In this document: positions 41,814 through 59,439 of the stretch, piece after piece
How the letters are laid out: every line of letters begins with the position of its first letter
How positions within the stretch are numbered: the stretch's first letter is position 1
Assembly (NCBI GenBank): GCA_026125795.1
Contig: JAHCKM010000004.1
Location: forward strand, 496,001-560,000
Direction of reading: 5' to 3'
DNA: 64,000 bases
Origin: Burkholderiaceae bacterium
GTDB lineage: Bacteria; Pseudomonadota; Gammaproteobacteria; Burkholderiales; Burkholderiaceae_C
Made by a program: the position numbers and the translations under genes
The notes under the pieces: generated by a model
Seen by the model: only the letters and a program-made list of their open reading frames with translations
What the model was told of the DNA's origin: nothing
Database searches by the model: none

Positions 41814-41860
41814 GGGCGCGCATTGTAGGCAGCCGCGTGCGCCGAAGCAGGAGAGGACCC

Positions 41861-42496
41861 GTGGACACCACCACCGAGCGCAGCACCTGGGCCGCGCGCA
41901 GCCACGAGCTGGCACAACTGATGTCGCGTTCGGCGCTGGGCGACCGCGACGCCTTCGCGCGCCTGTACGACCTGACCAGCGGTCACCTGTTCGCGGTGGT
42001 GCTGCGCATCCAGCGTGACCGCGCGTTGGCCGAAGACCTGCTGCAGGAGGTGTACGTCAACGTCTGGCGCGCAGTGGGCAGCTTCGATGCGGCGCAGTCG
42101 CAGCCGATGACCTGGCTCACCAGCATCGCACGCAACAAGGCCATCGACTCGCTGCGCCGCGCGCAGTCGCAGCCGGTGCTGCAGAGCGTGCACCGCGACG
42201 ACGATGACGACGACCGGCCGGATCTCGACCAGCAGATGGCCGACGAGTCGGCCGGCCCCGCGGACCTGCTGGCACAGGCGGGCGACGCGCGGCGCCTGAA
42301 CACCTGCATGCAGGGACTCAGCGCGGCGCAGCGCCAGAGCGTGGCGCTGGCGTTCTTCGACGGGCTGTCGCACGCCGAGGTGGCGGCGCACCTGCACCAG
42401 CCGCTGGGCACGGTGAAGAGCTGGGTGCGGCGCGCGCTGATGTCGCTGAAGGAGTGCCTGGAGCGTGCCGCACAGCGCGACGCGGTGGGAGTCTGA
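41861..42496 (+). CDS. ECF-type RNA polymerase sigma factor
   Basis: A 211-residue sigma-70 family member from a GTG start at 41861, with AGGAGAGG just upstream. Region 2 is DAFARLYDLTSGHLFAVVLRIQ-RDRALAEDLLQEVYVNVWR; region 4 is LSAAQRQSVALAFFDGLSHAEVAAHLHQPLGTVKSWVRRAL. A 30-residue acidic linker (DDDDDDRPDLDQQ) separates them. The group pairs with RskA-type anti-sigma factors, and one follows 26 bp downstream. Its regulon is unknown. Confidence 0.93.
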   Translation: MDTTTERSTWAARSHELAQLMSRSALGDRDAFARLYDLTSGHLFAVVLRIQRDRALAEDLLQEVYVNVWRAVGSFDAAQSQPMTWLTSIARNKAIDSLRRAQSQPVLQSVHRDDDDDDRPDLDQQMADESAGPADLLAQAGDARRLNTCMQGLSAAQRQSVALAFFDGLSHAEVAAHLHQPLGTVKSWVRRALMSLKECLERAAQRDAVGV

Positions 42497-42522
42497 GATG
42501 AAGAAGCCCGGGCGGTGCTGAC

Positions 42523-43233
42523 ATGGACTACGCCAAACCCGATCTCGCCGATGCGCTGGCCGCGCAATACGTGGCCGGCACGTTGCGCGGCCGCGCGCGC
42601 ACGCGCTTCGAATCCTTGCTGATCGCGCACGCGTCGCTGCGCGCCGCGGTGCGCCGCTGGCAGGACCGCCTGATTCCGCTCACCGCGGTGCTGCCGCCGC
42701 AGTCGCCGCCGCTGCGCGTGTGGCAGGGTGTGGAGCGCAAGCTGTGGCCGCAGCTCGCCGCGGCGGCCAAGCCGCTGCCGTGGCCACAGCGTGTCGGCGT
42801 CTGGCGCGCCGTGTCGGGTGTGGCGACCACCGCCGCATTCGCGCTGGCGCTGCTGCTGTCGGTACCCACGCCGCAGGCGCCGCCGATCGTCGTGGTGCTG
42901 CAGGGCACGGGCGACGCCGCACAGCCGCCGGGCTCGTTCGTGGCCAGCTTCTCGGCCGACGGGCGCTCGCTCGTCACGCGGCCGCTGCAACCGGTGGCGG
43001 TGCAGACCGATCGTGTGCTCGAGCTGTGGGCGGTGCCGCCGCAAGGTGCGCCGCGTTCGCTGGGCCTGATCTCCAGTAGCGGCGCCACCGTGATCGCGCG
43101 CGACAAGCTGCCGAAGGAAGTGCTGAACACGGCCAACACGTCGGCGCTCGCCGTCAGTGTCGAGCCGCCCGGCGGCTCGCCGAGCGGCGCGCCCACCGGG
43201 CCGGTGGTGTTCGCGGGCAAGTTGACGCTGTAG
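42523..43233 (+). CDS. RskA-type anti-sigma factor
   Basis: A 236-residue protein. The N-terminal 70 residues form the cytoplasmic anti-sigma domain (LAAQYVAGTLRGRARTRFE), one transmembrane helix lies at about 97-115 (SGVATTAAFALALLLSV) and the rest is a periplasmic anti-sigma-K domain (LELWAVPPQGAPRSLGLI, LAVSVEPPGGSPSGAPTGPV). It should hold the upstream ECF sigma factor inactive until an envelope signal triggers release. Confidence 0.9.
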   Translation: MDYAKPDLADALAAQYVAGTLRGRARTRFESLLIAHASLRAAVRRWQDRLIPLTAVLPPQSPPLRVWQGVERKLWPQLAAAAKPLPWPQRVGVWRAVSGVATTAAFALALLLSVPTPQAPPIVVVLQGTGDAAQPPGSFVASFSADGRSLVTRPLQPVAVQTDRVLELWAVPPQGAPRSLGLISSSGATVIARDKLPKEVLNTANTSALAVSVEPPGGSPSGAPTGPVVFAGKLTL

Positions 43234-43300
43234 GCGGTTTTGCGCGTTCCGGGGGGCGCGGCGGGCGCCGCGTGGCCTGCATCTTGCAGCCTGTGGCGCC

Positions 43301-43933
43301 GTGAGCAACAGCGGCGACTTGGTGCTGGCCGTCATCACCGCGGCGGCCACGGTGCCCGACCTCGACGACGAGGACGGCTGGGCCGAGGCCGACCGCCTGC
43401 GCGTGCTGGTGGGCGGCCTGCGCGATGCTGGCTACCGCGTCGGTGCCGTGCTGCCGGCCGACGCCGATCTGCACGATCGATTGACCGCGCTCGCACCCGA
43501 CGTGCTGGTGGTCGACGCCGAGAGCGGCGCGCGCGACGCGATCGAGCACGTGGTGTGGGCATCGCGCGATGCGCCGCGTCCGATCGTGCTGTTCACCGAC
43601 GAGCACGACCCCACACACGTGCGCGAGGCGGTGGCGCAGGGTGTGGTGGCCTACGTGGTGGCCGGCATGGCACCCGAGCGCGTGCGCCCGGTGATCGACG
43701 TGGCGATCGCGCGCTTCGAGCACGAGCGCGCCTTGCGCGTACAGGCCGCGCGCGGGCGCGAGCGTGACAAGGCGCAGGTGATCGTGGCGCGCGCCAAGCA
43801 ACTGCTGATGACGCGTCATCAGTTGAGCGAGCCCGAGGCCTATGCGCGTCTGCGTCGCACGGCGATGAACCAGGGGCTCACCGTGGCGGAGGTTGCACAG
43901 CGGCTGCTCGAGGTGGGCGACTTGTTCGGCTGA
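43301..43933 (+). CDS. NasT-like ANTAR response regulator
   Basis: A 210-residue protein from a GTG start. The receiver-like domain (about 8-130) has DVLVVDAESGARD with a possible phospho-Asp, but the usual conserved Lys near AYVVAGM is missing. The ANTAR RNA-binding domain (about 140-205) is KAQVIVARAKQLLMTRHQLSEPEAYARLRRTAMNQGLTVAEVAQRL. NasT-type ANTAR proteins bind leader hairpins of nitrate genes and prevent termination. A σ54-type promoter, hexaloop hairpin and terminator lie directly downstream, an obvious target. Confidence 0.92.
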   Translation: MSNSGDLVLAVITAAATVPDLDDEDGWAEADRLRVLVGGLRDAGYRVGAVLPADADLHDRLTALAPDVLVVDAESGARDAIEHVVWASRDAPRPIVLFTDEHDPTHVREAVAQGVVAYVVAGMAPERVRPVIDVAIARFEHERALRVQAARGRERDKAQVIVARAKQLLMTRHQLSEPEAYARLRRTAMNQGLTVAEVAQRLLEVGDLFG

Positions 43934-43981
43934 AGCACGCTCGATCGGGTGAAGCGTGCGGCCGCGCGGCCACCGCGTGGC

Positions 43982-44025
43982 GCACGTTTGGTGCGCTGCA
44001 CCGCGCCGGCATGCCGGATTGGTGC
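43982..44025. promoter_or_regulatory. Cluster of GCAC/GGTGC half-sites (candidate NtrC enhancer)
   Basis: GCAC 43982, GGTGC 43990, GCACC 43998 and GGTGC 44021 lie 50-95 bp upstream of a -24/-12 promoter. GCGCAC-GTTTG-GTGCGC is a perfect palindrome. NtrC sites are built from GCAC and GTGC halves, but the spacing (5 nt here, about 7 in the consensus) is off. Confidence 0.35.
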
Positions 44026-44076
44026 GCCGGGCCGCGTGTTGAGCAGAAAGTCACGGGCCCGCCCCGGGCATAGCCC

Positions 44077-44092
44077 TGGCACGCGGCTTGCG
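44077..44092 (+). promoter_or_regulatory. Sigma-54 promoter of the nitrate ABC/cytochrome operon
   Basis: TGGCAC-N5-TTGCG matches the -24/-12 consensus TGGCAC-N5-TTGC exactly. The predicted transcription start near 44103 falls at the foot of the hexaloop hairpin. The same TGGCA-N6-TTGCGAG sequence recurs before narK. Confidence 0.85.
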
Positions 44093-44102
44093 AGATGAGG
44101 CC

Positions 44103-44212
44103 TGCGGTTCAACGGCGAACCGCGTCGTGAAATTCGAACCCTCGGGGTTCAGGACAAAGGCGTCCGATGGTCGTGCTGCGCGAGCGCACGGTCACGGGCG
44201 CCTTCTTGTTTT
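44103..44212 (+). ncRNA. ANTAR-responsive leader RNA of the nitrate operon
   Basis: From the predicted start, GCGGTTC-AACGGC-GAACCGC forms a 7-bp hairpin with a hexaloop that has A at position 1 and G at 4, the two bases conserved in ANTAR-bound RNA loops. A second hairpin GAACC/GGTTC (44136-44150) can also pair with arms of the first. A terminator follows at 44157-44212. This is the layout of the nasF leader controlled by NasR: the ANTAR protein would stabilise the hairpins and stop termination. The second loop is not a hexaloop, so the tandem motif is incomplete. Confidence 0.7.
44157..44212 (+). terminator. Leader terminator upstream of first NrtA-like gene
   Basis: AAGGCGTCCG (44157-66) pairs with CGGGCGCCTT (44195-204) over 10 bp including one G-T, with a nested GTGC/GCAC stem inside, followed by CTTGTTTT. 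It precedes the coding start by 36 nt, so transcription must read through it for expression. Confidence 0.8.
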
Positions 44213-44247
44213 GGCACCGATCAGTTCGTCAGGCAAAGGCTCGCACG

Positions 44248-45546
44248 GTGCATCGTTCGATCGTTCCGGTCCAGGACACTCGAGACAAGCGTCCACGAGC
44301 GCTCGATCTCACGCGGCGCCGCTGGCTGCAGGCGGCCGCGGCCATCGGCGCCGCCGCGGGCACACCGCAGCGCCACGCCTGGGCGCTCGGCTCCGACGCA
44401 CCGGAGAAGACGGAGGTGAAGGTCGGTTTCATGCCGCTCACCGACTGCGCCAGCATCGTGATGGCCTCGGTGCTCGGCCTCGACAAGAAGTACGGCATCC
44501 GGATCGTTCCCACGCGCGAGGCCAGCTGGGCAGGCGTGCGCGACAAGCTCGTCAGCGGCGAGCTCGACATGGCGCACGTGCTCTACGGCCTGGTGTACGG
44601 CGTGCACATGGGCGTGGGTGGCCCGAAGAAGGACATGGCCGTGCTGATGACGATCAGCAACAACGGCCAGGGCCTGACGCTGTCGCGCAAGCTCGCCGAC
44701 AAGGGCGCGGTCAACGTCGAGACGCTGGCCCGGCTGATGGCTGCGGAGCAGCGCGTCTACACCTTCGCGCAGACCTTCCCCACCGGCACACACGCGATGT
44801 GGTTGAACTACTGGCTGGCCAGCGCGGGCATCGATCCGCTTCGCGGCGCCCGCGTGATCACCGTGCCGCCGCCGCAGATGGTGGCCAGCATGCGGCGCGG
44901 CCACGTGGATGGCTTCAGCGTCGGCGAGCCGTGGAACCACCGCGCCATCATCGATGGCATCGGCATCTCCGCGGCCACCAGCCAGGACGTCTGGAAGGAC
45001 CACCCGGAGAAGGTGGTCGGCACGACCGGCGAATTCGTCGCGCGGCATCCCAACACCTGCCGCGCCGTGATCATGGCCGTGCTGGAGGCCAGCCGCTGGA
45101 TCGACGCCAGCGTGCACAACAAGCTGAGGATGGCCGAGACCATCGCCGCCAAGGGCTACGTCAACACCAGCGTCGAGGCGATCAACCAGCGCATCCTCGG
45201 CCGCTACCAGGACGGCCTGGGCCGCACCTGGGACGACCCCAACCACATGAAGTTCTTCGCCGACGGCGCGGTCAACTATCCGTACCTGTCCGACGGCATG
45301 TGGTTCCTCACGCAGCACAAGCGCTGGGGGCTGCTCGCCGAGCATCCCGATTATCTCGGCGTCGCGCGCGCGGTGCAGCAGACCGCGCTGTACCGCGAGG
45401 CGGCGGCGCAGGTGGGCGTGGCCGTACCCGGAAGCGACATGCGCACCAGCCGCCTGATCGACGGCATCGAGTGGAGCGGCAACGAGCCGGCCGCCTACGC
45501 CGACGGCTTTTCCATCCGCGCACTGCCGGCACAGGCGTACGCCTAG
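44248..45546 (+). CDS. NrtA-like nitrate/nitrite-binding protein 1
   Basis: About 432 residues of the NrtA/CmpA/NasS family (KVGFMPLTDCASIVMASVLGLD, VPPPQMVASMRRGHVDGFSVGEPWN, HPEKVVGTTGEFVARHPNTC). A start at GTG 44248 is chosen since an upstream ATG (44167) lies inside the terminator. LTRRRWLQAAAAIGAAAG is a Tat-like signal, so export is favoured. Still, the adjacent NasT-like gene makes a NasS-like sensing role worth testing; NasS proteins are NrtA relatives without signal peptides. A second NrtA-like gene follows after 96 bp. Confidence 0.85.
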   Translation: MHRSIVPVQDTRDKRPRALDLTRRRWLQAAAAIGAAAGTPQRHAWALGSDAPEKTEVKVGFMPLTDCASIVMASVLGLDKKYGIRIVPTREASWAGVRDKLVSGELDMAHVLYGLVYGVHMGVGGPKKDMAVLMTISNNGQGLTLSRKLADKGAVNVETLARLMAAEQRVYTFAQTFPTGTHAMWLNYWLASAGIDPLRGARVITVPPPQMVASMRRGHVDGFSVGEPWNHRAIIDGIGISAATSQDVWKDHPEKVVGTTGEFVARHPNTCRAVIMAVLEASRWIDASVHNKLRMAETIAAKGYVNTSVEAINQRILGRYQDGLGRTWDDPNHMKFFADGAVNYPYLSDGMWFLTQHKRWGLLAEHPDYLGVARAVQQTALYREAAAQVGVAVPGSDMRTSRLIDGIEWSGNEPAAYADGFSIRALPAQAYA

Positions 45547-45642
45547 CGAGTCAATCGGTGGACAGTCTTCGCGCCCATCGCTGCCGTTTCGTTTCATCTC
45601 CCGACCATACCGATCGAATCACTGACTGAAGGAGCCATCGCC

Positions 45643-47022
45643 ATGAACTCGCCCCTCCGCAACGACCGCCGCCGCCTCGTTGGTGCCGCCCTTGCCGGTG
45701 CCGCCGCGGCCGCGGGCCTCGGCTTGCCGCGCTCCGCGCAGGCACAGAAGAAGGCCTATCCCGAGAAGGAGTCGCTGAAGTTCGGCTTCATCAAGCTCAC
45801 CGACTGCGCGCCGCTGGTCATCGCCTACGAGAAGCGCTTCTTCGAGGACGAAGGGCTGAGCGTCACGATCGAGGCGCAGGCCAACTGGAAGGTGCTGCTC
45901 GATCGCGTGATCGACGGGCAGCTCGACGGCGCGCACATGCTCGCCGGGCAGCCGCTGGGCGCCAGCATCGGCTTCGGCACCAAGGCCGACGTGATCACCG
46001 CCTTCAGCATGGACCTGAACGGCAACGCGGTCACCGTCTCCAACGAGGTCTGGAACGACCTCAAGCCGCTGCTGCCCACGGCCGACGGCAAGGTGCAGCA
46101 CCCGATCAAGGCCGAGTACCTGAAGAAGGTGGTCGACAAGTGGAAGGCCGCCGGCAAGCCCTTCAAGATGGGCATGGTCTTCCCGGTCTCGACGCACAAC
46201 TACGAACTGCGCTACTGGCTCGCCGCCGGCGGCCTGCACCCGGGCTTCTACACGCCAAGCGACGTCACCGGCACCGTCAAGGGCGACGTGTTGATCTCGG
46301 TGACGCCGCCGCCACAGATGCCGGCCACGATGGAGGCCGGCACCATCAACGGCTACTGCGTGGGCGAGCCCTGGAACCAGCAGGCGGTGTTCAAGGGCAT
46401 CGGCGTGCCGGTGATCACCGACCACCAGATCCAGGCGCACAACCCCGAGAAGGTGTTCGGCGTCACGCAGGGCTGGGCCGACAAACATCCGAACACCCAC
46501 GTCGCCGTGGTGAAGGCGCTGATCCGCGCCGGCATGTGGCTCGATGCGTCGATGGCCAACCGCATCGAGGCGGTGAAGATCCTGTCCAAGCCCAACTACG
46601 TGGGCGCCGATGCGGCGGTGATCGCCAATAGCATGACGGGCACCTTCGAGTTCGAGAAGGGCGACAAGCGCCCGGCGCCCGATTTCAACGTCTTCTTCCG
46701 CAACCACGCGACCTACCCGTTCTACAGCGACGCCATCTGGTACCTGACGCAGATGCGCCGCTGGGGCCAGATCGCCGAGTCCAAGCCCGACAGCTGGTAC
46801 TTCGAGACCGCGAAGAAGGTCTACCGCCCCGACATCTACCTGCAGGCGGCCAAGGCGCTGATCGCCGAAGGTAAGGCCAAGGAAGGCGACTTCCCGATGA
46901 AGTCCGACGGCTTCAAGGGCCAGCAGGGCGGCTTCATCGACGGCATCGTCTACGACGGCCGCAAGCCCAACGAGTACCTGGGCAAATTCAAGATCGGCCT
47001 GAAGTCCGCGGACAAGGCCTGA
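45643..47022 (+). CDS. nrtA: NrtA-like nitrate/nitrite-binding protein 2
   Basis: A 459-residue periplasmic binding protein. A Tat-type signal ([21 protein letters not shown], cleavage near AQA) is followed by [53 protein letters not shown] and [16 protein letters not shown], all as in NrtA. AAGGAG lies upstream of ATG 45643. It delivers nitrate to the permease encoded 22 bp later. Confidence 0.94.
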
Positions 47023-47043
47023 CCTCACGAGGGACCTCTCACC

Positions 47044-48009
47044 ATGCAAGCGATCCTAAGATTCATCGGCGGCGGCCGCGCCGATCCGCGCGAGGCCGCG
47101 CGCGCGCTGATGCTGTCGGCGGGCGTGCCCGTCATCGCGTTCGCGCTGTTCCTGCTGCTGTGGTCGGCGCTGGCCGCGCGCATCCAGACCAGCCTGGGCG
47201 CGGTGCCCGGCCCGGTGGCCGTGGTGCAGCAGGCCAAGGCCCTGTGGGACGACCATGTGGCCGAACGTGCTCGCCGCGCCGCCTTCTACGAGCGCCAGGA
47301 GGCGCGCATCCAGGAGCGTCTGGCGGCCGAGCCCGGCTACGTGCCCACCCGCCCGGCCTACACCGGCAAGCCGACCTATCTCGACCAGATCGGCACCAGC
47401 CTGTTCACGGTGTTCGCCGGCTTCGTGCTGGCCTCGCTGGTGGCGGTGCCGCTGGGCATCCTGGCCGGCTCGTCGAAGATCGTGCAGGCGGCGATCAACC
47501 CGATCGTGCAGATTTTCAGGCCGGTGTCGCCGCTGGCCTGGCTGCCGATCGTGACGCTGATCGTCAGTGCGCTGTACGTCACCAGCGGGCCGCCGCTGTT
47601 CGAGAAGTCATTCCTGATCTCCGCGATCACGGTCACGCTGTGCTCGCTGTGGCCGACGCTGATCAACACCGCGGTCGGCGTGACCTCGGTCGACCGCGAT
47701 CTGGTCAACGTGGGCCGCGTGCTGCAGCTGCCGCTGCTGACGCGGGTGCGCAAGATCATCCTGCCGTCGGCGCTGCCGTTCATCTTCACCGGCATGCGGC
47801 TGTCGCTCGGCGTGGGCTGGATGGTGCTGATCGCCGCTGAGATGCTGGCGCAGAACCCGGGCCTGGGCAAGTTCGTCTGGGACGAGTTCCAGAACGGCAG
47901 CTCCGATTCGCTCGGCCGCATCCTGGTCGCCGTCTTCACGATCGGCATCATCGGCTTCGGCCTGGACCGCGTGATGCTGCTGGCGCAGCAGCTCGCGGCC
48001 AAGCGCTGA
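47044..48009 (+). CDS. nrtB: Nitrate ABC transporter permease NrtB
   Basis: A 321-residue inner membrane permease. A first helix (27-45) is followed by a charged, partly coiled periplasmic or loop insert ([30 protein letters not shown]) and then five helices. [16 protein letters not shown] and the coupling loop [32 protein letters not shown] are NrtB-typical. It lies between the binding protein and the fused ATPase gene. Confidence 0.94.
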
Positions 48010-48023
48010 AGCGGAGGTTCGCG

Positions 48024-49895
48024 ATGGAATTCGCCATCAAGAGCCTGCACGGCGCCGCCGCGCGTGCCCCGCTGGCGCGCACGCAAGCGCGCGCCGCTGC
48101 CGCCCCCGCGTTGCAGCCGGTGAGCGCCGCGGCCGCGCTCGAGCTGCGCGGCATCGCCAAGGGCTACGGCAGCGGCCGCGGCCGCAGCGAAGTGCTGCAC
48201 GACGTGAACCTGCGCATCGAGCCCGGTGAGTTCGTCGCCATCGTCGGCTTCTCGGGCAGCGGCAAAACCACGCTCGTCAACCTGCTGGCCGGACTCACCA
48301 CGCCCGATGCCGGGCAGGCGCTCCACCTGGGGCAGCCGATCACCGGGCCGGGGCCCGATCGCGGCGTCGTGTTCCAGAGCTACTCGCTGATGCCCTGGCT
48401 CACGGTGCGCGAGAACGTCGCGCTCGCGGTCGACCGCGTGTTCGCTTCCGACGTCGCGGCGGCGCGTGCCGAGCGCGTGAAGCGCTACGTGTCGATGGTG
48501 GGCCTGTCGGCCGCAGTGGACAAGAAGCCGGCGCAGCTTTCGGGCGGCATGCGCCAGCGCGTGGCGGTGGCGCGCGCGCTGGCCACCGACCCCGACGTGC
48601 TGCTGCTCGACGAGCCGCTGTCGGCGCTCGATGCGCTGACGCGCGCGCAGCTGCAGGACGAGATCGTGCGCATCTGGGGCGAGAACCGCAAGACGGTGCT
48701 GCTGATCACCAACGACGTCGACGAGGCGCTGATGCTCGCCGACCGCGTGATCCCGCTGGAGATCGGGCCGCGCGCCAAGCTCGGTCCTTCGTTCGCGGTC
48801 GACATCGAGCGGCCGCGCGACCGGCTGGCGATGAACCACGACGCGCGCTTCCGGCAACTGCGCGGCCAGATCACGCAATACCTGCTCGACATGGCACACG
48901 CACACGCCGGCACGCGCAGCGCCGAGGTGATCGCGCTGCCGGCGCTGAAGCCCGCTGCGCTGCACGCGGCGCCGAGCAAGACGCTGCCCGAGCTGCTGCG
49001 CATGCGCCATGCGGACCTGGCCGCGTGCATCGAAGCCGAGGCCAGGGCGCAGGCGCTGCCGGACCACCCAGCGGCTCCGTCCGGCGGCGAAGGCGGCGCC
49101 GCGCGCAGCCACGACGATCGTTTTGCCGAGTTCTCGCGGGTGGTCAAGGTCTACCCGACACCGGCCGGCCCGCAGGCGGTGGTGGACGGCTTCGAGCTGA
49201 AGATCGCCAAGGGCGAGTTCGTCTCGCTGATCGGCCATTCGGGCTGCGGCAAGTCCACCGTGCTGTCGATGATGGCCGGCCTCGCCGAGATCAGCGAAGG
49301 CGTGATCGTGCTCGACGGGCGCGAGGTGCGCGATGCCGGTCCCGACCGCGGCCTGGTCTTCCAATCGCCCAGCCTCGTGCCGTGGCTGACCGCGTTCGAC
49401 AACGTCATGCTCGGTGTGGCGCGCGTGTTTCCGCATGCCACGCCAGCCGAGCGCGCCGACACGGCGGGCTACTACCTGCAGCGCGTGGGCCTCGGCTCGG
49501 CGATGAAGAAGAAGGCGAGCGAGCTGTCCAACGGCATGAAGCAGCGCGTGGGCATCGCGCGCGCCTTCGCGCTGCAGCCCAAGCTGCTGCTGCTCGACGA
49601 GCCGTTCGGCATGCTCGACGCGCTGACGCGCTGGGAGCTGCAAGAGGTGCTGATGGAGGTGTGGGCGCGCAACCGCGTCACCGCGATCATGGTCACGCAC
49701 GACGTCGACGAGGCGATCCTGCTGGCCGACCGCGTGGTGATGATGACCAACGGCCCGCGCGCCAAGGTCGGCCGCGTGATGGAGGTGCCGCTGCCGCGTC
49801 CGCGCAGCCGCGAAGCCCTGCTCGCGCACCCGCGCTACTACGAGTTGCGCGAGGAGCTGCTCGGCTTCCTGGAGAGCTGCGGGCACCAGCACTGA
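48024..49895 (+). CDS. Nitrate ABC transporter, tandem ATPase NrtC-NrtD fusion
   Basis: A 623-residue protein with two ATPase domains. Domain 1 (about 38-270): Walker [10 protein letters not shown] at 75-83, signature LSGGMRQR, Walker [12 protein letters not shown]. Domain 2 (about 365-615): Walker [10 protein letters not shown] near 404, signature LSNGMKQR (Asn for the usual first Gly), Walker [12 protein letters not shown]. Instead of the NrtA-like regulatory domain of cyanobacterial NrtC, a 95-residue Ala-rich linker joins them. One chain supplies both ATP sites. Confidence 0.92.
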
Positions 49896-49926
49896 GGCCG
49901 TCCCTTCGCCGCCGCAGTACACAGGC

Positions 49927-51966
49927 ATGTCGCAGCGCACCGCGCTCGCCCCCGACCCGATCGTTGTATCGGGTGCTGCGGCGGTGCGGCACGCACTGCC
50001 GGCGGCGCGTGCAACAGCCGAGCCGCCGGTCGTGGTGGTCGGCGCCGGGCCGGTGGGCATGCGCTTCGCGCAGGAGCTGGCGCGGCGTGCGCCGCACATT
50101 GACATCGTGGTCTACGGTGACGAAGCGCTGCCGCCGTACAACCGCGTGCGGCTGTCGTCGTTCCTCGCCGGCGAGCTGGGCTGGGCTGGCATGGTCGACG
50201 AAACGGCGGCGCACGGCATCGGCCGCATCGAGATGCGGCTGGGCACCGCGGTGGTCACGATCGACCGCGAAGGCGGCCAGGTGGTCGACGCGCGCGGGCA
50301 CACACAGCGGTACCGGCAGCTGGTGCTGGCCACCGGGTCGCGCCCGGTCGTGCCGCAGGTGCCGGGCATCACGATGGCCGGCGTGCTGACCTTTCGCGAT
50401 CTGCGCGATGCCGAGCGACTGATGGCGCGGCGCGTGCGCAGCCGCCACACCGTGGTGGTGGGCGGCGGCCTGCTCGGGCTGGAGGCGGCGCGTGCGATGC
50501 GCCGCTTCGGCACCGAGGTCACCGTGCTCGAGCACAGCGCGCGCCTGATGGCGCGCCAGCTCGACGATGGCGGCGCCGCCGTGCTGCGCGCCGAAGTGCA
50601 GGCCTGCGGCATCCAGGTGGTGACCGGTGATGCGCTGAAGGAGGTGCAGGGCCGCGAGCGCGTGCAGCGCCTGCTGCTGCGCAGCGGCACGCTGCTGGCG
50701 TGCGACACGCTCATCGTGGCCGCCGGCATCGTGCCGCAGGTGCAGCTCGCGCTGCAGGCCGGGCTGCCGATCGGCCGCGGCGTGCGCGTGGACGACCACC
50801 TGCGCACCGCCGATCCGCGTGTCTTCGCCATCGGCGAGTGCGCCGAGCATCGCGGCCGCGTCTATGGCCTGGTGGCGCCGGGCTTCGAGCAGGCGGCGGT
50901 TGCCGCGCACGCGGTGGCCGGCGGCGGCGCCGCGTACAGCGGCTCGGTGAGCGCGGCGCGGCTCAAGGTGGTCGGCACGCCGGTGTTCAGCATCGGTGCC
51001 GTCGGCGACGACGTGCCGCCGGGTGCACGCACCGTCGCGCATGCCGATGCCAGCCAACGCACCTATCGCAGCGTGGTGCTCGAGCGCGGGCGCCTGGTCG
51101 GTGCGACGGCGGTGGGCTCCTGGGACGAGGTGGCGCGTGTGCAGGAAGCGGTGACGGCCGGCCGCCGCGTGTGGCCCTGGCAGCGCTGGCGCCTGCGCCG
51201 CCACGGCCGGCTGTGGGCTCAGGCCGAGGCGGCGGAGGTGACGGCATGGCCCGACGCCGCCATCGTCTGCCAGTGCACCGGCGTGAGCTGCGGCACGCTG
51301 CGCGAGGCGATCGCCGGCGGTGCCGCGACGCCGCAGGCGCTGTGCGCGGCCACCGGCGCCTCGAGCGTGTGTGGCACCTGCCGGCCGCAGCTGCAGGCGC
51401 TGCTCGGCGGCAGCGCGGCGCCGGAGCCGGTGCTCGGCGCGGTGTGGCTGTGGCGCGCCGGCATCGTCGCCGCGCTGGCGGCGCTCGCACTGCTGCTGCT
51501 GCCCGCGATCGACTACCCCGACAGCGCCGCGCTGCGCTGGCGCTGGGACCTGCTGTGGCGCAACGCGCAGATCAAGCAGATCAGCGGCTATCTGATGCTG
51601 GCGCTGATGCTCGCGCTGGCCACGCTCGGTCTGCGCAAGCGCGTGCGCCGCATCGCGCTCGGCCGCTTCGACGGCTGGCGTGTCGCGCACGGTGTGATCG
51701 GCTTGGCCGCGCTGGCGGTGCTGGTGGTGCATAGCGGCGCGCGCCTGGGTGCCAACCTGAACTTCGTGCTGTCGCTCTCGCTGCTCGGTGCCGCGGCCGC
51801 TGGCGCGTTAGGCAGCCTGAGCGTCGCACGCGAGCACCGCTGGCCGGCGCTGGCGCGCGCCTGGCGCCGCCATGCGGTGTGGACGCACGTGCTGCTGCTG
51901 TGGCCGCTGCCGGTGCTGCTGGCGCTGCACGTGCTGAAGTTCTATTTCTTCGGGGGCCGCTGGTGA
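49927..51966 (+). CDS. NirB-like FAD/[2Fe-2S] oxidoreductase fused to a dihaem-b membrane domain
   Basis: A 679-residue fusion. Residues about 34-400 are a pyridine-nucleotide-type FAD oxidoreductase related to the NirB N-terminus (VVVGAGPVG at 36-44, VVVGGGLLGLEAARAM, FAIGECAEHRG). Residues 445-495 are a BFD-type [2Fe-2S] domain with C448-x-C450 and C482-x2-C485. From 506 there are five predicted helices; helix 3 has H588-x13-H602 and helix 5 has H654-x13-H668, the spacing that holds two stacked b haems in ferric reductase/NOX-type proteins. No sirohaem domain. It overlaps the multihaem gene by 4 bp (GTGA). Inferred role: moving electrons between cytoplasmic NAD(P)H and periplasmic cytochromes. 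Confidence 0.85.
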   Translation: MSQRTALAPDPIVVSGAAAVRHALPAARATAEPPVVVVGAGPVGMRFAQELARRAPHIDIVVYGDEALPPYNRVRLSSFLAGELGWAGMVDETAAHGIGRIEMRLGTAVVTIDREGGQVVDARGHTQRYRQLVLATGSRPVVPQVPGITMAGVLTFRDLRDAERLMARRVRSRHTVVVGGGLLGLEAARAMRRFGTEVTVLEHSARLMARQLDDGGAAVLRAEVQACGIQVVTGDALKEVQGRERVQRLLLRSGTLLACDTLIVAAGIVPQVQLALQAGLPIGRGVRVDDHLRTADPRVFAIGECAEHRGRVYGLVAPGFEQAAVAAHAVAGGGAAYSGSVSAARLKVVGTPVFSIGAVGDDVPPGARTVAHADASQRTYRSVVLERGRLVGATAVGSWDEVARVQEAVTAGRRVWPWQRWRLRRHGRLWAQAEAAEVTAWPDAAIVCQCTGVSCGTLREAIAGGAATPQALCAATGASSVCGTCRPQLQALLGGSAAPEPVLGAVWLWRAGIVAALAALALLLLPAIDYPDSAALRWRWDLLWRNAQIKQISGYLMLALMLALATLGLRKRVRRIALGRFDGWRVAHGVIGLAALAVLVVHSGARLGANLNFVLSLSLLGAAAAGALGSLSVAREHRWPALARAWRRHAVWTHVLLLWPLPVLLALHVLKFYFFGGRW

Positions 51967-53378
51967 CGCGCGCGCGCTTGTGGGCGCTGTGGGCGCTGCT
52001 GTCGCTGGTGCTGGCCGGCGCGCTCGGTGCCGGCCTCGCGCTGGACAGCGAGGCCAAGGAATCGCCGCGCTGGACGCTGCGCCGCGCGTTCCTGCCCGGC
52101 GGCACCTCGCACGGCCACCACCAGATCGAGCTGCGCTGCGAGAGCTGCCACGGCGGCGCCGCGTTCGCCGGGCCCGACGCATTGCAGGACGCGTGCATGC
52201 GCTGCCACGGCGCGGAGCTGAAGGAGGCGCGCGACTCGCATCCGCGCAGCAAGTTCACCGATCCGCGCAACGCCGAACGCGCGGCACGGCTGGACGCCGC
52301 GCGCTGCGTCACCTGTCACGTCGAGCACCAGCCGGGCATCACGCACGCCGCCGGGCTCACGCTGCCGCAGGACTTCTGCGTCATCTGCCATGCCGACATC
52401 GCACAGGAGCGCCCCACGCACGCCGGGCTCGGCTTCGCCGGTTGCGCCAGTTCCGGTTGCCACAACTTCCACGACAACCGCGCGCTGTACGAGGACTTCA
52501 TGCTCAAGCACGCGCCGCAGCCGGCGCTGCTGCAGAAGACGCAGCGCCCGGCGCGCGATTTCGCGCGCGTGGCCGAGGAGATCGGCAGCTATCCGTCCGA
52601 GCGCTTTCCGCTGCGGCCGCTGCAGGCGCACGACGGCGGCAGCCACGCCACGCCGGCGATCGCGCAGGATTGGCTGGCCAGCAGCCATGCCCGCAATGGC
52701 GTCAACTGCAGCGGCTGCCACGCCCCGAGCGGTGACGCCGGCTGGGCCGACAAGCCGCCGCGCGCGGCGTGCGCAGGCTGCCATGCCGACGAGGTGCGCG
52801 GCTTCGGCGCCGGCAAACATGGCATGCGCGAAGCCGCCGGGTTGGGCGCGATGCAGCCGGCCATGGCGCGCATCGCGATGAAAGCCGACGCCGCCGAGCG
52901 CAGTCTGGATTGCACGAGCTGCCACGGTGCGCACCGCTTCGACACCCGGCAGGCGGCGGCCGATGCCTGCCTGGGCTGCCACGACGACCGGCACAGCCGC
53001 GCCTGGCAGGCCTCGCCGCATGCCGCGCTGTGGCGCGGCGAGTTGGCCGGCACGCTGCCGCCCGGCAGCGGCGTGCCGTGCGCCGCCTGCCACCTGCCGC
53101 GCGTGGAACACCGCACCGAAGACGTCCGGCGCACGCTGGTGCAGCACAACCAGAACGACAACCTGCGCCCCTCGGACAAGCAATTGCGCAGCGTCTGCCT
53201 GGGCTGCCACGGCCTGGCCTTCAGCCTCGACGCGCTGGCCGATCGTGCGCTGGTCGAGCGCAACTTCGCCGGCCGCCCGGCGGTGCATGTCAACAGCATC
53301 GAGATGGCGCTCGACGCCGAGCGCCGTGCCGATCAGTCGCGCCGCAAGGGCGCAAGCGCAGCAAAGGGTGGCTCATGA
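51963..53378 (+). CDS. Membrane-anchored decahaem (possibly undecahaem) cytochrome c
   Basis: A 471-residue protein from GTG 51963, coupled to the FAD gene. An uncleaved N-terminal helix (6-27) probably anchors it facing the periplasm. CXXCH sites start at residues 59, 78, 115, 139, 249, 270, 317, 336, 373 and 412. A CX4CH (CASSGCH, 161-167) may bind an eleventh haem. Two clusters of sites (59-167 and 249-416) are separated by 80 residues, suggesting a two-module wire. No Lys-type (CXXCK) catalytic haem is seen, so it is likely a conduit rather than a nitrite reductase. Confidence 0.88.
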   Translation: MTRARLWALWALLSLVLAGALGAGLALDSEAKESPRWTLRRAFLPGGTSHGHHQIELRCESCHGGAAFAGPDALQDACMRCHGAELKEARDSHPRSKFTDPRNAERAARLDAARCVTCHVEHQPGITHAAGLTLPQDFCVICHADIAQERPTHAGLGFAGCASSGCHNFHDNRALYEDFMLKHAPQPALLQKTQRPARDFARVAEEIGSYPSERFPLRPLQAHDGGSHATPAIAQDWLASSHARNGVNCSGCHAPSGDAGWADKPPRAACAGCHADEVRGFGAGKHGMREAAGLGAMQPAMARIAMKADAAERSLDCTSCHGAHRFDTRQAAADACLGCHDDRHSRAWQASPHAALWRGELAGTLPPGSGVPCAACHLPRVEHRTEDVRRTLVQHNQNDNLRPSDKQLRSVCLGCHGLAFSLDALADRALVERNFAGRPAVHVNSIEMALDAERRADQSRRKGASAAKGGS

Positions 53379-53436
53379 GCCCCGCGCTGCTCTTGCGCTG
53401 CCGCTCCAACGCTTCTTCACCCGGAGGGTCTTCCCA

Positions 53437-54012
53437 ATGAAACGTTTGTCCCTTTCCCGCATTTCCACCGTCCTTGCCGCGGCCGCCTGCCTGGCCTGCG
53501 GCGGCGCGCTCGCGCAGGCCGCCGCCGGCTGGTCGTACAAGGACATTGCCGACTCGCTGCACATGATCATGGAGTCGGACCGCACCGTGTACACGCGGCT
53601 GATCGTCAACCGGCTACAGAACGAAGAGAAGGTGATCAAGGCCAGCGAGCACTGGAAGGACGACAAGGCGCTGGTGCTGCCGGCGCAGATGTTCCGCTAT
53701 GGCGCGGAGATGGTGCAGGAGAAGGGCGCGGGCTTCAGCTACGCGTTGCTGTCGGACTGGGCGGTCAACAAGCAGAACGCACCCAAGACCGCCGTGGAGA
53801 AGGAGGGCTTGGCCGCGGTGGTCAAGAGCGGCGCGCCGTTCTACAAGGAGGAGACGCTCGGCGGCAAGAAGTTCTTCACCGCCGTCTATCCGGACAAGGC
53901 GGTGGCCAAGGCCTGCATCGTCTGCCACAACGATCACAAGGACAGCCCGAAGCGCGACTTCAAGATGGGCGACGTGATGGGCGGCGTGGTGTTGCGGCTG
54001 CCGATGAAGTGA
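53437..54012 (+). CDS. Tll0287-like (DUF3365) haem protein
   Basis: A 191-residue exported protein. The signal peptide ends at ALAQA. One haem site, CIVCH, lies at the C-terminal end (KACIVCHNDHKDSPKRDF), a position typical of Tll0287/DUF3365 domains, which have a PAS-like fold and act as periplasmic redox or haem sensors. GGAGG lies upstream of ATG 53437. The next gene begins at its stop codon. Confidence 0.82.
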   Translation: MKRLSLSRISTVLAAAACLACGGALAQAAAGWSYKDIADSLHMIMESDRTVYTRLIVNRLQNEEKVIKASEHWKDDKALVLPAQMFRYGAEMVQEKGAGFSYALLSDWAVNKQNAPKTAVEKEGLAAVVKSGAPFYKEETLGGKKFFTAVYPDKAVAKACIVCHNDHKDSPKRDFKMGDVMGGVVLRLPMK

Positions 54013-54395
54013 TGGGCGCAGCGCCGTTTCGCATGCTGCTCGTCTGTGCCGCGCTCGCCGCGCACGGCGCCGCCATCGCGCAGGGCGCCGGCCCGTTCCC
54101 GGAGCCCTCCGATACGCGCCTGCGTGCCGGTCGCACGGTCTGGCTCGGCACCTGCCGCGACTGCCACGGCAACAGCATGTCGGATGCACCGACCGTGAAG
54201 AACACCAAGGACTGGCAGCCGCGCCTGGCGCGCGGCCGTACCGCCCTGTATGCCAGTGCGCTCGGTGGGCGCAAGGGCGCAGGCGGTACGGAGATGCCGG
54301 CGCGCGGAGGCAACGCCAACCTGACCGACGACCAGGTCAGGGCGGCAGTCGACTACATGGTCTGGCTCGTCGAACCCCGAAAGGAAATGCAATGA
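54012..54395 (+). CDS. Small c-type cytochrome
   Basis: A 127-residue exported monohaem protein. The signal peptide ends at AIAQG. Haem motif CRDCH is in WLGTCRDCHGNSMSDAP; the axial Met is probably in GTEMPARGGNANL. ATG 54012 shares one base with the preceding stop; GTG 54009 is an alternative. Class I cytochrome fold. It overlaps the globin start by 4 bp. Confidence 0.88.
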   Translation: MGAAPFRMLLVCAALAAHGAAIAQGAGPFPEPSDTRLRAGRTVWLGTCRDCHGNSMSDAPTVKNTKDWQPRLARGRTALYASALGGRKGAGGTEMPARGGNANLTDDQVRAAVDYMVWLVEPRKEMQ

Positions 54396-54805
54396 CTCCT
54401 GCTGAAGTGAACCTGATCAAACTCACCTGGTCGCGCGTCGTGCCGATCAAGGAGACCGCCGCCGGTTTGTTCTACGGCAAGCTGTTCGAGCTCGACCCTT
54501 CGGTCCAGCCGATGTTCAAGGGCGACATCAAGGAGCAGGGCGCCAAGCTGATGGCGACGCTCAACGTCGTGGTCGAGAGCCTCGACAGGCTCGACCAGGT
54601 GGTGCCGGTGGCCAAGGAACTGGCGATCCGACACGTGCCGTACGGCGTCAAGCCGGGGCACTACGACACCGTGGGCGCGGCCCTGCTGTGGACGCTGGAG
54701 CAGGGTCTGGGCGCCGGCTTCACGGCCGACGTGAAGCAGGCCTGGGCCAAGGCCTACACCACGCTGGCCGGCGTGATGAAGGAAGCGGCCTACGCGCCGG
54801 CATGA
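54392..54805 (+). CDS. Single-domain bacterial globin
   Basis: A 137-residue globin of the flavohaemoglobin/Vitreoscilla type without a reductase domain. TPAEVNLIKLTWSRVVPIKETAAGLFYGKLFELDPSV is the A-C region; the proximal His lies in IRHVPYGVKPGHYDTVG. Last gene of the nitrate/cytochrome operon, coupled by ATGA overlap. Such globins are linked to NO dioxygenation or oxygen supply; co-expression with nitrate reduction favours NO or nitrite-related protection, by inference. Confidence 0.93.
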   Translation: MTPAEVNLIKLTWSRVVPIKETAAGLFYGKLFELDPSVQPMFKGDIKEQGAKLMATLNVVVESLDRLDQVVPVAKELAIRHVPYGVKPGHYDTVGAALLWTLEQGLGAGFTADVKQAWAKAYTTLAGVMKEAAYAPA

Positions 54806-54853
54806 AGCGATCGCAGCAGCGCACGAGGCGAGCATGAGGCACTGATGGGGCGC

Positions 54854-56134
54854 TCACCCATTCATGATCACCTGCAGGCTGGTCTCGTAGGCGGCCGTGA
54901 GTGCGTCGAAGTGATCGAGCAGCCGCTCGCTGCTGTGCGCCATCGCCGTGCGCCCCTGCGTCTGGCCGGCCTCGTGCAGGCCGCGCAGCAGGCGCAGCCA
55001 TTCCTCGCGCGCCGCCAGCAGCCCGGCGCGCACCACGGGCGAGGTGAGCGGCGCGCGTTCCAGCTCGTCGAGCGCCTGTTCGAACTCGGCGATCTCGTGC
55101 TCGATCGCCGGCGTGCCGGCGTGCGCGGCTGGGAGCACGCTGGCCAGCAGCGCCAGCTTCACGATGCGCTGCGCGCGCATGCGCTGGCGGCCGCAAAGGT
55201 TGACGATGCGCACCGAGCGCACGCCGCTGCCGGCCTCGATCGCGGCGACGAGCCGCTCGGCGGCCTCGAGCAGCGCGGCCGCCGCCGCATCGGCCGCGAC
55301 GAGGTCGGTGCGCGCGGCCGGCGTGTCGAGCGCGGGCTCGAGCGAGCGCCACGCGGCGTCCGCCTGCGCCAGCTCGGCGGCCGCGTTCAATGCGGCGCCC
55401 ACGCCGTGCAGGTGCGCCAGCGCGGCCTGCACGCGCTCGCGCGATTGCGCCAGCCGCGCGGCGGTGCTGCGCACCTCGATGCGCGCCGCGCGCAGCGCCA
55501 GCAGCTTGACGATGCGCTGCGACAGCATGCGCAACTGGCCGGCGCGGTTGATCGCATCGGCGCGCTGCGCGGCCTCGACCACCGCGCGCGACATCTCGGC
55601 CACGCGGAGCTGCGCGTGCATCGAGGCGCCGCGCAGCAGCTTGAAGGCCTCGTCCTCGCCGATGCGGCGCGCGCTCATCAGCACGCCCTTGGCGCGCTCG
55701 ATCCACTTGCGCTCGTCGAGCTGCTCGCGCGAGCGTTCCAGCTCGGCGCGTGCCGCCGCGTCGCGGCGCGCACGCGCCCGCGCCAGCCGCAGCACCGCAT
55801 CGAGCCGCTGCGCCGCATAGCCGTTGACCACCCAGGCGTGCACGCCGGCATCGAGCGCGCGCTCCAGCGCGGCGTCGCTGGCGTCGGCGGTGAACACCAC
55901 GCGCGCGCAGGCCGCAGGCGCCTGCGCCAGCGCGTCGAACAGCGCGTCGTCGGGCTGCGCCATGTGGCACACCAGCAGTTGCGGCGCGTCGTCGGCGTGC
56001 ATCGTGTGCACCAGCGTGTGGCGCGAAACCGGCGTCAGCGGTGCATGGCCGAGCGCGCGCAGTGCGGCGAGCAGTTCGGCTTCGACGAGCGCATCGGCCA
56101 GCACGAGCGCGCGCAGCGCGGTTTCAGCGGGCAT
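54854..56134 (-). CDS. Pseudo-receiver/ANTAR regulator with PilJ/NarX-like nitrate-sensor domain
   Basis: A 426-residue protein in three parts. Residues 1-125 are receiver-like but lack the phospho-Asp (QLLVCHMAQ). Residues about 134-190 are an ANTAR domain (WIERAKGVLMSARRIGEDEAFKLLRGASM). Residues about 193-420 are all-helical with two NarX/PilJ P-box-like segments, INRAGQLRMLSQRIVK (195-210) and VNLCGRQRMRAQRIVK (311-326). NasR has its nitrate-sensing NIT domain before ANTAR; here the order is reversed. Soluble, no membrane helix. It is divergent from narK, whose leader has the expected hexaloop. Confidence 0.85.
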   Translation of the reverse strand: MPAETALRALVLADALVEAELLAALRALGHAPLTPVSRHTLVHTMHADDAPQLLVCHMAQPDDALFDALAQAPAACARVVFTADASDAALERALDAGVHAWVVNGYAAQRLDAVLRLARARARRDAAARAELERSREQLDERKWIERAKGVLMSARRIGEDEAFKLLRGASMHAQLRVAEMSRAVVEAAQRADAINRAGQLRMLSQRIVKLLALRAARIEVRSTAARLAQSRERVQAALAHLHGVGAALNAAAELAQADAAWRSLEPALDTPAARTDLVAADAAAAALLEAAERLVAAIEAGSGVRSVRIVNLCGRQRMRAQRIVKLALLASVLPAAHAGTPAIEHEIAEFEQALDELERAPLTSPVVRAGLLAAREEWLRLLRGLHEAGQTQGRTAMAHSSERLLDHFDALTAAYETSLQVIMNG

Positions 56135-56199
56135 GGGTCACGTGGTTGGGCATCGCGTGGGGCTTCGCGCGAGCATAGGCCACCCCGGCGTGGGGCCGC

Positions 56200-56215
56200 T
56201 GGCATGCGGCTTGCG
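56200..56215 (+). promoter_or_regulatory. Sigma-54 promoter of narK
   Basis: TGGCAT-N5-TTGCG, one base from consensus and 15 of 16 bases identical to the promoter at 44077. Predicted start near 56226, just before the leader hairpin. Confidence 0.8.
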
Positions 56216-56225
56216 AGGTTGGAGG

Positions 56226-56270
56226 CGTCGGTGCAAAGACGCACCGCATCGGTGATGGTGCCCGCCCGTC
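56226..56270 (+). ncRNA. Hexaloop leader RNA of narK
   Basis: CGGTGC-AAAGAC-GCACCG (56229-56246) is a 6-bp hairpin with an A1/G4 hexaloop, as expected for ANTAR recognition. GCATC/GGTGC (56246-56261) can form a second hexaloop stem (loop GGTGAT, lacking A1), and GCACC of the first hairpin can pair instead with GGTGC 56257-61. I see no convincing U-rich terminator in the remaining 150 nt before the start codon at 56412. Confidence 0.55.

Positions 56271-57711: not shown

Positions 57712-59439
<1,728 letters not shown>

Follow-up and report, generated by a model that had tools for sequence, protein, structure and literature searches.

The nearest described system to the locus analysed here is Bjgb/Flp of Bradyrhizobium, encoded in the narK-bjgb-flp-nasC cluster of Bradyrhizobium japonicum. 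According to the available part of the published account, bjgb or flp mutants are more sensitive to nitrosative stress, and NO consumption was up 2.5-fold in the bjgb strain (PMC4724949). NO detoxification was shown by Bradyrhizobium mutants (PMC4724949, available part), and the system is under NasS-NasT control, a trait which the present locus would share. A preliminary description of the locus had held that operons for nitrate assimilation are normally confined to genes of transporters and reductases. This is too strong, since narK-bjgb-flp-nasC, in the same part of the account, includes a globin and a FAD flavoprotein (PMC4724949). A further family of relevance is haem-Cache (sCache_heme/DUF3365/Tll0287), which includes a tight NO binder without an axial cysteine. 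A stand-alone haem-Cache protein that was tested showed weak NO binding, and in the accessible text the authors assign stand-alone members a redox role (PMC12889525).

The window is a stretch of 64,000 nucleotides from contig JAHCKM010000004.1 of a Burkholderiaceae bacterium. From nrtA to a globin gene (44167-54805) it contains nine genes on the forward strand, with a largest gap of 96 bp and three 4-bp overlaps. The first encodes an NrtA-like binding protein whose N terminus, read from the sequence, is twin-arginine-like (44167-45546; PF13379). It is followed by a second NrtA-like binding protein (45643-47022; PF13379), an NrtB permease (47044-48009; PF00528, and 151.1 bits to TIGR01183, under its cut-off of 209.05) and NrtCD, a fused double ATPase (48024-49895; TIGR01184, 601.7 bits, cut-off 291.8). 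The fifth gene encodes a protein in which a NirB-like NAD(P)H/FAD head, without the sirohaem part, is joined to a BFD [2Fe-2S] domain and a dihaem-b membrane part (49927-51966; Pfam Pyr_redox_2, Rubredoxin_C and Fer2_BFD). The remaining four encode an 11-haem c-type cytochrome (51963-53378; ten CXXCH and one CX4CH; PF14537), a Tll0287-like (haem-Cache) c-haem protein with an export signal (53437-54012; PF11845, 73.4 bits, cut-off 24.1), a small monohaem cytochrome c (54009-54395; PF13442) and a single-domain globin (54392-54805; PF00042).

Upstream on the same strand lies a gene for a NasT-like ANTAR antitermination regulator (43301-43933; PF03861, 56.2 bits), and in several relatives, too, NasT-like genes adjoin the set. 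Downstream, an ANTAR protein with PilJ-type domains (54854-56134, reverse strand; PF03861, PF13675) is probably a second nitrate/nitrite regulator. It is followed by a NarK-like MFS transporter (56367-57692, forward; PF07690), which is presumably NarK by position and family knowledge. A PP2C phosphatase-protein kinase fusion (57712-59472, reverse; Pfam) comes next and adjoins the set in some relatives as well. The window closes with assimilatory reductase genes on the forward strand: NirB (59598-62060; Pfam), NirD (62057-62437) and NasA (62512 to the window end at 63999), the last two named from domain and position.

The gene row given in the preliminary description was borne out, the families by profile match and the junctions by measurement. 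Its statement that no gap exceeds 100 bp holds from the first nrtA gene to the globin gene, but the NasT-like gene, with which the span of that description opens, is separated from the first nrtA gene by 233 bp; overlaps of 1-4 bp, said to be the rule, were overstated and occur at three of the eight junctions. The gaps are 96 bp between the two NrtA genes, 21 bp from the second of these to NrtB, 14 bp from NrtB to NrtCD and 31 bp from NrtCD to the FAD gene. These are followed by -4 bp (FAD to 11-haem cytochrome), 58 bp (cytochrome to haem-Cache), -4 bp (haem-Cache to small cytochrome c) and -4 bp (small cytochrome c to globin). Consensus scans, which are weak evidence, detected no promoter-like sequence across 43200-56500 and, within the 31-bp NrtCD-FAD gap, no terminator-like one either. 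As a candidate NasT-target leader, the sole Rfam hint was a narK RNA at 44078-44166, which at 26.1 bits (gathering score 43.2) and E 0.21 was not accepted.

As with Bjgb/Flp, a single-domain globin and a FAD/NAD(P)H flavoprotein are encoded here with nitrate transport and reduction genes, in what is by spacing an operon. Unlike Flp, which in the available text resembles cytoplasmic NAD(P)H oxidoreductases, the window flavoprotein is fused to BFD and haem-b parts. Moreover, a membrane haem-b part, a multihaem cytochrome and a haem-Cache protein are not mentioned for the Bradyrhizobium system in that part of the source (PMC4724949).

The FAD protein shares its FAD, NAD(P)H and BFD parts with the NirB large subunit, residues 35-494 matching positions 1-466 of TIGR02374. 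In place of the sirohaem/4Fe-4S half, however, it has the dihaem-b membrane domain; a Pfam search of 49927-51966 gave no sirohaem/NIR_SIR match, and the true NirB is the product of 59598-62060. In an AF2 model (pLDDT 89.4), helices at 505-524, 547-569, 581-603, 611-634 and 640-678 (broken at 659) are read as five membrane helices. All four BFD cysteines (C448, C450, C482 and C485) and all four histidines of the HX13H pairs H588/H602 and H654/H668 are kept in 62 of 62 rows of the alignment (A3; the window plus 61 of 62 relatives), and the pairs are taken as ligands of two bis-histidine haem sites across the membrane. The position at which Glu or Asp would indicate NADH holds Gln or His in 24 of the 62 rows. 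Two HX13H pairs are shared with ferric-reductase/DUF4405/b561-type dihaem-b proteins, from which the window protein differs in its NirB-like flavin head and in the 11-haem cytochrome encoded next to it. Pfam matches to these families are weak: at E up to 1, relatives matched DUF4405 (15 of 26), b561 (7) and Ferric_reduct (5), and the window's own membrane part matched none of the three. Cystine-transporter matches of the membrane profile (E 0.011) and the Cation_ATPase_C matches were dismissed as chance or composition, and the list of structure matches was taken up by the FAD head. At two loci (L052 and L073) the haem-b part is present without the FAD head.

The cytochrome gene has a GTG start within its 4-bp overlap with the FAD gene, and its product, with a hydrophobic helix at the N terminus, is predicted to be membrane-anchored (AF2 model, pLDDT 82.7). 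Ten CXXCH motifs and one CX4CH were found in 71 of 71 cytochrome ORFs counted (from 82 loci, taking only well-covered ORFs of 430-520 aa), the constancy of CX4CH being partly built in, as one of the two scan patterns, GCHNFHD, spans its end. Outside the CXXCH motifs, 11 histidines are invariant or nearly so (69 or 70 of 70 rows) and a twelfth is present in 63 of the 70 (alignment A2; the window plus 69 of the 71 counted ORFs). As these conserved histidines would suffice to cap every haem, their count suggests that no catalytic haem is open. The protein is unlike the hydroxylamine oxidoreductase/octahaem family in its weak score, its 11 haems, the absence of CXXCK and the lack of an evident open haem by histidine count. 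The cytochrome profile also hit NrfA, eight-haem nitrite reductases and further multihaem chains (profile of 36 sequences; best E 4.9e-10), but these hits extend over short CXXCH-rich stretches and were not counted as homology. In a second comparison, HAO-family chains, 4qo5 and one Mtr chain were among the matches listed, which does not exclude multihaem families absent from them. The score to the DmsE/MtrA-type decahaem profile TIGR03508 was 45.8 bits against a cut-off of 192.2. No cytochrome relative was found in plasmid records or, with six exact peptide patterns, in viral contigs.

The haem-Cache protein resembles the sCache_heme/DUF3365/Tll0287 family in scoring over the PF11845 cut-off, standing alone, being exported and having a conserved CXXCH (C160, C163 and H164), which is invariant in 60 rows (alignment A4; the window plus 59 of 75). 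Past the export signal its only cysteines are those of the CXXCH, so that, unlike Tll0287, the mature part has no cysteine able to serve as an axial ligand of that type. In nine of the 60 rows a further cysteine occurs after residue 35; it lies 137-176 residues upstream of the CXXCH, a position within or ahead of the export signal. The protein also has a conserved His72. PDB sequence searches with this protein gave no match, with the profile none even at E 10, and the axial ligand is therefore not placeable by alignment. The protein also differs from the family in context: its partner is an 11-haem cytochrome, by way of which the relatives considered here were collected, and the accessible part of the family's description does not mention such a setting (PMC12889525).

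The Cache superfamily is chiefly sensory, and a cysteine-lacking haem-Cache member is NO-sensor-like in the accessible text (PMC12889525). The protein could accordingly sense periplasmic NO or redox state, with the wire setting the redox state of its haem. In locus L058 the haem-Cache gene is followed by a sigma-54 response regulator, and in L087 the set has a chemoreceptor gene on its upstream side. Such a signalling role is nevertheless improbable: eleven haems and a flavin head make a costly sensor, and among the identified recurring gene clusters, outside which many neighbours lie, the NasT-like regulators are the only signalling genes that come up repeatedly next to the core.

Further genomic analysis revealed that four other genomes of the order share the gene succession FAD, cytochrome, haem-Cache and globin at 49-85% identity, the small cytochrome c being detected in two of these. 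A genome scan with two patterns found 197 relatives, of which 80 were kept. The core was found in these 80 loci from about eight phyla, as judged from record titles and partly from general taxonomy, many records being metagenome bins. Wherever the upstream sequence reaches 2.3 kb or more, the gene directly before the cytochrome is that of the haem-b protein (72 of 72 loci); where the downstream sequence reaches 1 kb or more, the haem-Cache gene comes after the cytochrome gene in 77 of 78. Median gaps, measured from mechanical ORF starts, are 4 bp (FAD to cytochrome, 73 loci) and 18 bp (cytochrome to haem-Cache, 74 loci). Sequence distances of the cytochrome correlate with those of the FAD protein (0.71) and the haem-Cache protein (0.52), and 0 of 500 permutations reached as high a value. 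By these comparisons the grouping of the FAD, cytochrome, haem-Cache and globin genes is not chance. Conservation of the neighbours in relatives, on which the preliminary description had staked its reading, was found for the core and is in part missing for the nrt genes. On present genomic evidence the natural unit is the FAD/haem-b, 11-haem and haem-Cache core, not the nitrate operon.

The link to nitrate assimilation claimed at the outset is nonetheless supported. Nitrate genes were recognised beside the core in 24 of 56 well-covered loci and none in the other 32, recognition being by similarity cut-offs against the window's genes, so that 24 is a lower bound, counted without a random-locus control. 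At loci without nitrate genes, ten neighbours were scanned and proved to have no shared feature. A NasA-like reductase occurs in 48 of 50 carrier genomes, picked from the 80 so as to favour loci without visible nitrate genes, compared with 125 of 200 background genomes drawn from the phylum; this comparison is uncorrected for kinship and genome size, its background includes the window's own genome, and related molybdenum enzymes may count. Replacement of NirB by the set was dropped as an explanation, a near-full-length NirB-like match being present in 35 of the 50 carriers and in one more in two pieces.

These data bear on the possibility that the set supplies electrons to nitrate assimilation. 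In one form the wire would run inward from the quinol/cytochrome pool to the BFD/FAD head, which would feed NasA or NirB; in another, the head would pass NADH electrons to NasA, as is thought for Flp and NasC, with the wire as a side branch. Linkage to nrt, narK, nirB and nasA and the NasA-like reductase of the carriers agree with this, and Bradyrhizobium needs Flp to grow on nitrate, according to the available text (PMC4724949). Locus L052, where NasA and a distant NarK-like gene (27% identical) precede a headless haem-b/cytochrome/haem-Cache set, points the same way. The explanation is still doubtful, as the window NirB has its own NAD(P)H/FAD part, a separate NirB-N-like flavoprotein adjoins NasA in some carriers (G404, G420, G426 and G428), the 32 loci above are not beside recognised nitrate genes, and the haem-Cache protein and an exchange of globins are left unexplained.

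A search of the whole genome at E 0.001 or better matched PF00042 to no protein other than the window globin. This globin has 137 aa, is unfused and scores 72.9 bits against a flavohaemoglobin (Hmp) cut-off of 432, which sets it apart from proteins fused to a FAD/NAD reductase. In its pocket TyrB10, PheCD1 and GlnE7 are present in 25 of 25 rows and HisF8 in 24 (alignment A6; the window plus 24 of 46). With the names B10, E7 and F8 taken in their usual meaning, these residues make it a globin of NO dioxygenase type, and it would have that activity. A globin lies within 6 kb of the core in 52 of 61 loci and none was recognised in nine. In eight of the 61, mostly from marine gammaproteobacteria, a truncated globin beside a Fer2/FAD/NAD reductase replaces the window type, which argues that globin activity is selected along with the set. 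Since these loci keep the FAD head despite their own adjacent reductase, the head does not serve the globin solely. Globin distances correlate with those of the cytochrome at r 0.39 (1 of 500 permutations as high), of the haem-Cache protein at 0.12 (93 of 500) and of the FAD protein at 0.03 (205 of 500), over 22-24 loci. The globin is thus a frequent yet exchangeable partner of the core. The set was also considered as a flavohaemoglobin replacement, which was not supported (over the cut-off in 4 of 50 carriers against 26 of 200 background genomes); at E 1e-40 the figures are 18 of 50 and 65 of 200, and carriers are not clearly poorer.

The poor tracking of the core by the globin would fit a redox valve, in which the wire unloads surplus NADH on the cytochrome c pool of the periplasm, and through it on terminal oxidases, when nitrate assimilation or growth stalls, and the globin is an independent passenger. 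The seemingly all bis-histidine 11-haem cytochrome and the small cytochrome c fit pure electron transfer, and the core exists without recognised nitrate genes. A valve of this kind is unlikely, however: one would not obviously expect a wasteful complex I bypass to be linked with nitrate reductase (in 48 of 50) or with globins (in 52 of 61), and the small cytochrome c was detected by tblastn in just 35 of 80 loci, compared with 77 of 78 for the haem-Cache gene.

The best reading, offered tentatively and at rather less than an even chance, is a defence against nitric oxide that is driven by NADH, acts at both faces of the membrane and is made up of an inner-membrane conduit and the globin. Cofactor ligands, membrane and export elements and conserved order are evident for the conduit; its assembly from the FAD/BFD/haem-b protein, the 11-haem cytochrome and the haem-Cache protein, NADH as donor and outward flow are what we infer. 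Electrons would pass from NADH through FAD and [2Fe-2S] to two b haems across the membrane, and from these to the eleven c haems and the haem-Cache protein (with the small cytochrome c) in the periplasm. The target would most likely be NO formed as a by-product of nitrate or nitrite reduction. Inside, the globin, acting as a cytoplasmic NO dioxygenase, would remove NO and may be re-reduced by the FAD head, as perhaps with Bjgb and Flp; outside, NO would be reduced at the periplasmic haem-Cache/multihaem end. Of the interpretation first put forward, the predicted path from NAD(P)H through the membrane to c haems (BFD cysteines and haem-b histidines in 62 of 62 rows) and the NO-dioxygenase-type globin pocket stand, and the nitrate operon as natural unit does not.

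The two-sided defence is favoured by conserved order and co-inheritance (72 of 72 and 77 of 78), by the nearby globin (52 of 61), its exchange in eight loci and its TyrB10 and GlnE7 (25 of 25), and by the NasA-like reductase (48 of 50 against 125 of 200). It is favoured as well by the tight NO binding of a cysteine-lacking haem-Cache member (PMC12889525), the window protein likewise being without such a cysteine, and by the protection from NO that a globin and flavoprotein in a nitrate operon give Bradyrhizobium (PMC4724949), as far as the available parts of both sources go. Against it stand the weak NO binding of a stand-alone haem-Cache protein, in the accessible text (PMC12889525), and the cytochrome in which every haem can be capped. 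The head kept beside truncated globins, the poorly tracking globin distances and the nine loci without a globin also disfavour it, as do flavohaemoglobin in carriers, the headless loci L052 and L073 and the Gln or His in 24 of 62 rows. A bolder version, to which we give a low probability, is a new enzyme system, an NADH-driven periplasmic reductase of NO (or nitrite or hydroxylamine) whose catalytic end would be the 11-haem and haem-Cache proteins and which, paired with the cytoplasmic globin, would form a two-sided nitrogen-oxide shield in about eight phyla.

No description of the FAD/haem-b, 11-haem and haem-Cache combination was found in titles and abstract openings of the open-access PMC literature. 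Should the NO reading prove wrong, the core still stands as a conserved redox set to which the searches tied no described function, and its constant gene order (72 of 72, 77 of 78) makes joint purification and testing of the partners reasonable. If the two-sided defence is true, about eight phyla would share an undescribed route by which NADH electrons cross the inner membrane into an 11-haem cytochrome. This route would be tied to nitrate use and NO-removing globins, and would bear on how nitrate assimilators survive self-made NO. It would also give a function to a class of multihaem cytochromes otherwise perhaps counted as respiratory or extracellular-electron-transfer parts, and one group of stand-alone haem-Cache proteins would gain a partner and a testable role.

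Nine forward-strand genes occupy 44167-54805 of the window, which belongs to a host genome of 6.57 Mb in six contigs. They encode, in order, two NrtA-like binding proteins, NrtB, NrtCD, a FAD/BFD/membrane protein with the haem-b part (49927-51966), an 11-haem cytochrome (51963-53378), a Tll0287-like haem-Cache protein (53437-54012), a small cytochrome c (54009-54395) and a globin (54392-54805). This is the gene anatomy given in the preliminary description, which went too far in calling the genes mostly overlapping: successive junctions are 96, 21, 14, 31, -4, 58, -4 and -4 bp, so that overlaps make up three of the eight. A NasT-like gene (43301-43933) lies 233 bp upstream of the run, and an ECF sigma factor and RskA-type anti-sigma factor (41837-43233, same strand) end 67 bp before it. 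Directly before nrtA1, at 44078-44166, a sub-threshold match to the Rfam narK RNA was found (26.1 bits against 43.2, E 0.21), and the 357 nt of 43934-44290 gave a better fold than their shuffled versions (z -3.0), of which 1 in 100 did as well. The leader around 44078-44166 is a possible target of the NasT-like regulator. Past the globin follow an ANTAR/PilJ-domain regulator on the opposite strand (54854-56134), a NarK-like transporter, a PP2C phosphatase-protein kinase fusion (57712-59472), NirB, NirD and NasA. The operon is flanked by two unlike ANTAR proteins, NasT-like and PilJ-type, and the fusion between narK and nirB was seen again near the set in relatives' loci L014-L018, L024, L026 and L041.

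Genome contigs were scanned for relatives, and of the 197 found 80 were kept; read from record titles, these span Pseudomonadota, Myxococcota, Nitrospirota, Poribacteria, Planctomycetota, Verrucomicrobiota, Dadabacteria and Acidobacteriota. Where the flanking DNA of kept loci was long enough, the gene immediately 5' of the cytochrome is the haem-b gene in 72/72, with the FAD head present in 70, and the haem-Cache gene follows the cytochrome in 77/78; in the sole exception (L081) it lies upstream within the same cluster. With mechanical ORF starts, the haem-b-cytochrome gap has a median of 4 bp (73 loci; largest 81 bp) and the cytochrome-haem-Cache gap one of 18 bp (74 loci; largest 294 bp). 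Pairwise distances correlate at 0.71 for cytochrome/FAD, 0.52 for cytochrome/haem-Cache and 0.54 for FAD/haem-Cache (0/500 permutations as high for each), whereas the globin, compared over 22-24 loci, gave 0.39 with the cytochrome (1/500), 0.12 with haem-Cache (93/500) and 0.03 with FAD (205/500). Judged from these sequence distances, the core consists of FAD/haem-b protein, cytochrome and haem-Cache protein, with the globin a looser partner. Horizontal transfer of the set is probable in view of its sporadic occurrence: within the order, the cytochrome is present in 5/399 genomes (the window's own included) and absent from all 11 other same-family genomes on that list.

Variants of the haem-b gene were also seen. 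In Polyangium (L060:6143-9979, a protein of 1278 aa; also L064 and L070) the FAD/BFD head and the haem-b part are separated by over 500 residues of low-complexity linker. In L052:9475-9996 and L073:9436-9969 a headless haem-b part is a separate gene 5' of the 11-haem and haem-Cache genes, preceded in L052 by NasA and a distant NarK-like gene.

For the globin, a search within 6 kb covered the 61 loci flanked by 3 kb or more on both sides. A globin was found in 52, of window type in 42 and truncated type in 11 (one locus falls in both classes); neither type was found in the other 9. The window type was not found in marine gammaproteobacteria (Aliagarivorans and Neptuniibacter, for example); there the slot after the cytochrome c gene holds a truncated haemoglobin (PF01152) with a Fer2/FAD/NAD reductase, a combination present at 8/61 loci. 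Occupation of one slot by two globin classes suggests that selection keeps the globin chemistry, the globin being exchangeable but wanted. Truncated-globin loci retain the NAD(P)H/FAD head even though their globin has another reductase next to it, and the head is therefore presumed to serve the wire as well. The window-type pocket has TyrB10, PheCD1 and GlnE7 in 25/25 rows and HisF8 in 24/25, a set we take to be that of bacterial NO dioxygenases. In a search with profile PF00042 alone, the window globin was the only match in its genome.

Window-like nitrate genes, recognized by similarity to those of the window, adjoin the set in at least 24 of the 56 loci flanked by 5 kb or more on both sides. 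In whole-genome searches, a NasA-like reductase was found in 48/50 carriers, hand-chosen from the 80 to favour loci without visible nitrate genes, against 125/200 genomes drawn from the phylum (window's own included), statistics that ignore kinship. A NirB-like match near full length was found in 35/50 carriers and one in two pieces in a further carrier; the remaining carriers may use another nitrite reductase.

The cofactor ligands, conserved order and association with globins and nitrate reductase are shown by the sequences. In the inferred route, NADH would reduce FAD, and the [2Fe-2S] cluster and the pair of b haems would relay electrons to the 11 c haems and the haem-Cache protein. NO from nitrate and nitrite reduction would be removed in the cytoplasm by the globin and in the periplasm by the haem-Cache/multihaem end. 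NO removal during nitrate/nitrite reduction is the most economical function of the set, though we propose it tentatively. Its precedent is the Bradyrhizobium nitrate operon, whose globin and flavoprotein are reported to remove NO (PMC4724949).

The core is completed by a stand-alone haem-Cache protein, whose CXXCH residues are invariant across 60 aligned rows. Several relatives are probably membrane-anchored lipoproteins, because a loose lipobox pattern occurs in 38/60 rows (some of them doubtful, with the window's included). In one study, a stand-alone member that carries an axial cysteine looked redox-like and bound NO weakly, and a sensor member without this cysteine bound NO tightly (PMC12889525). 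After its export signal, the window protein has only the CXXCH cysteines. Another cysteine after residue 35 was found in 9/60 rows, 137-176 residues before CXXCH, and by position would lie in or before the export signal. His72 (54/60 rows) is a candidate second haem ligand.

Against NO removal count the apparently capped cytochrome haems, the finding that the sole stand-alone haem-Cache protein tested binds NO weakly (PMC12889525), the loci without globin, the two headless loci, and the lack of a clear trade-off between the set and flavohaemoglobin in carrier genomes. An inward supply of electrons to nitrate reduction is unlikely, as is, to the same degree, a redox valve; signalling is less probable still. 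NO removal is the likeliest of these readings, though short of even odds. The parts of the set are members of known families, and the globin-flavoprotein-nitrate link is already known. Searches of an open-access library listed no description of a set that joins the NAD(P)H/BFD/dihaem-b fusion to an 11-haem cytochrome and a haem-Cache protein, and tests may yet show the core to be something new in kind.
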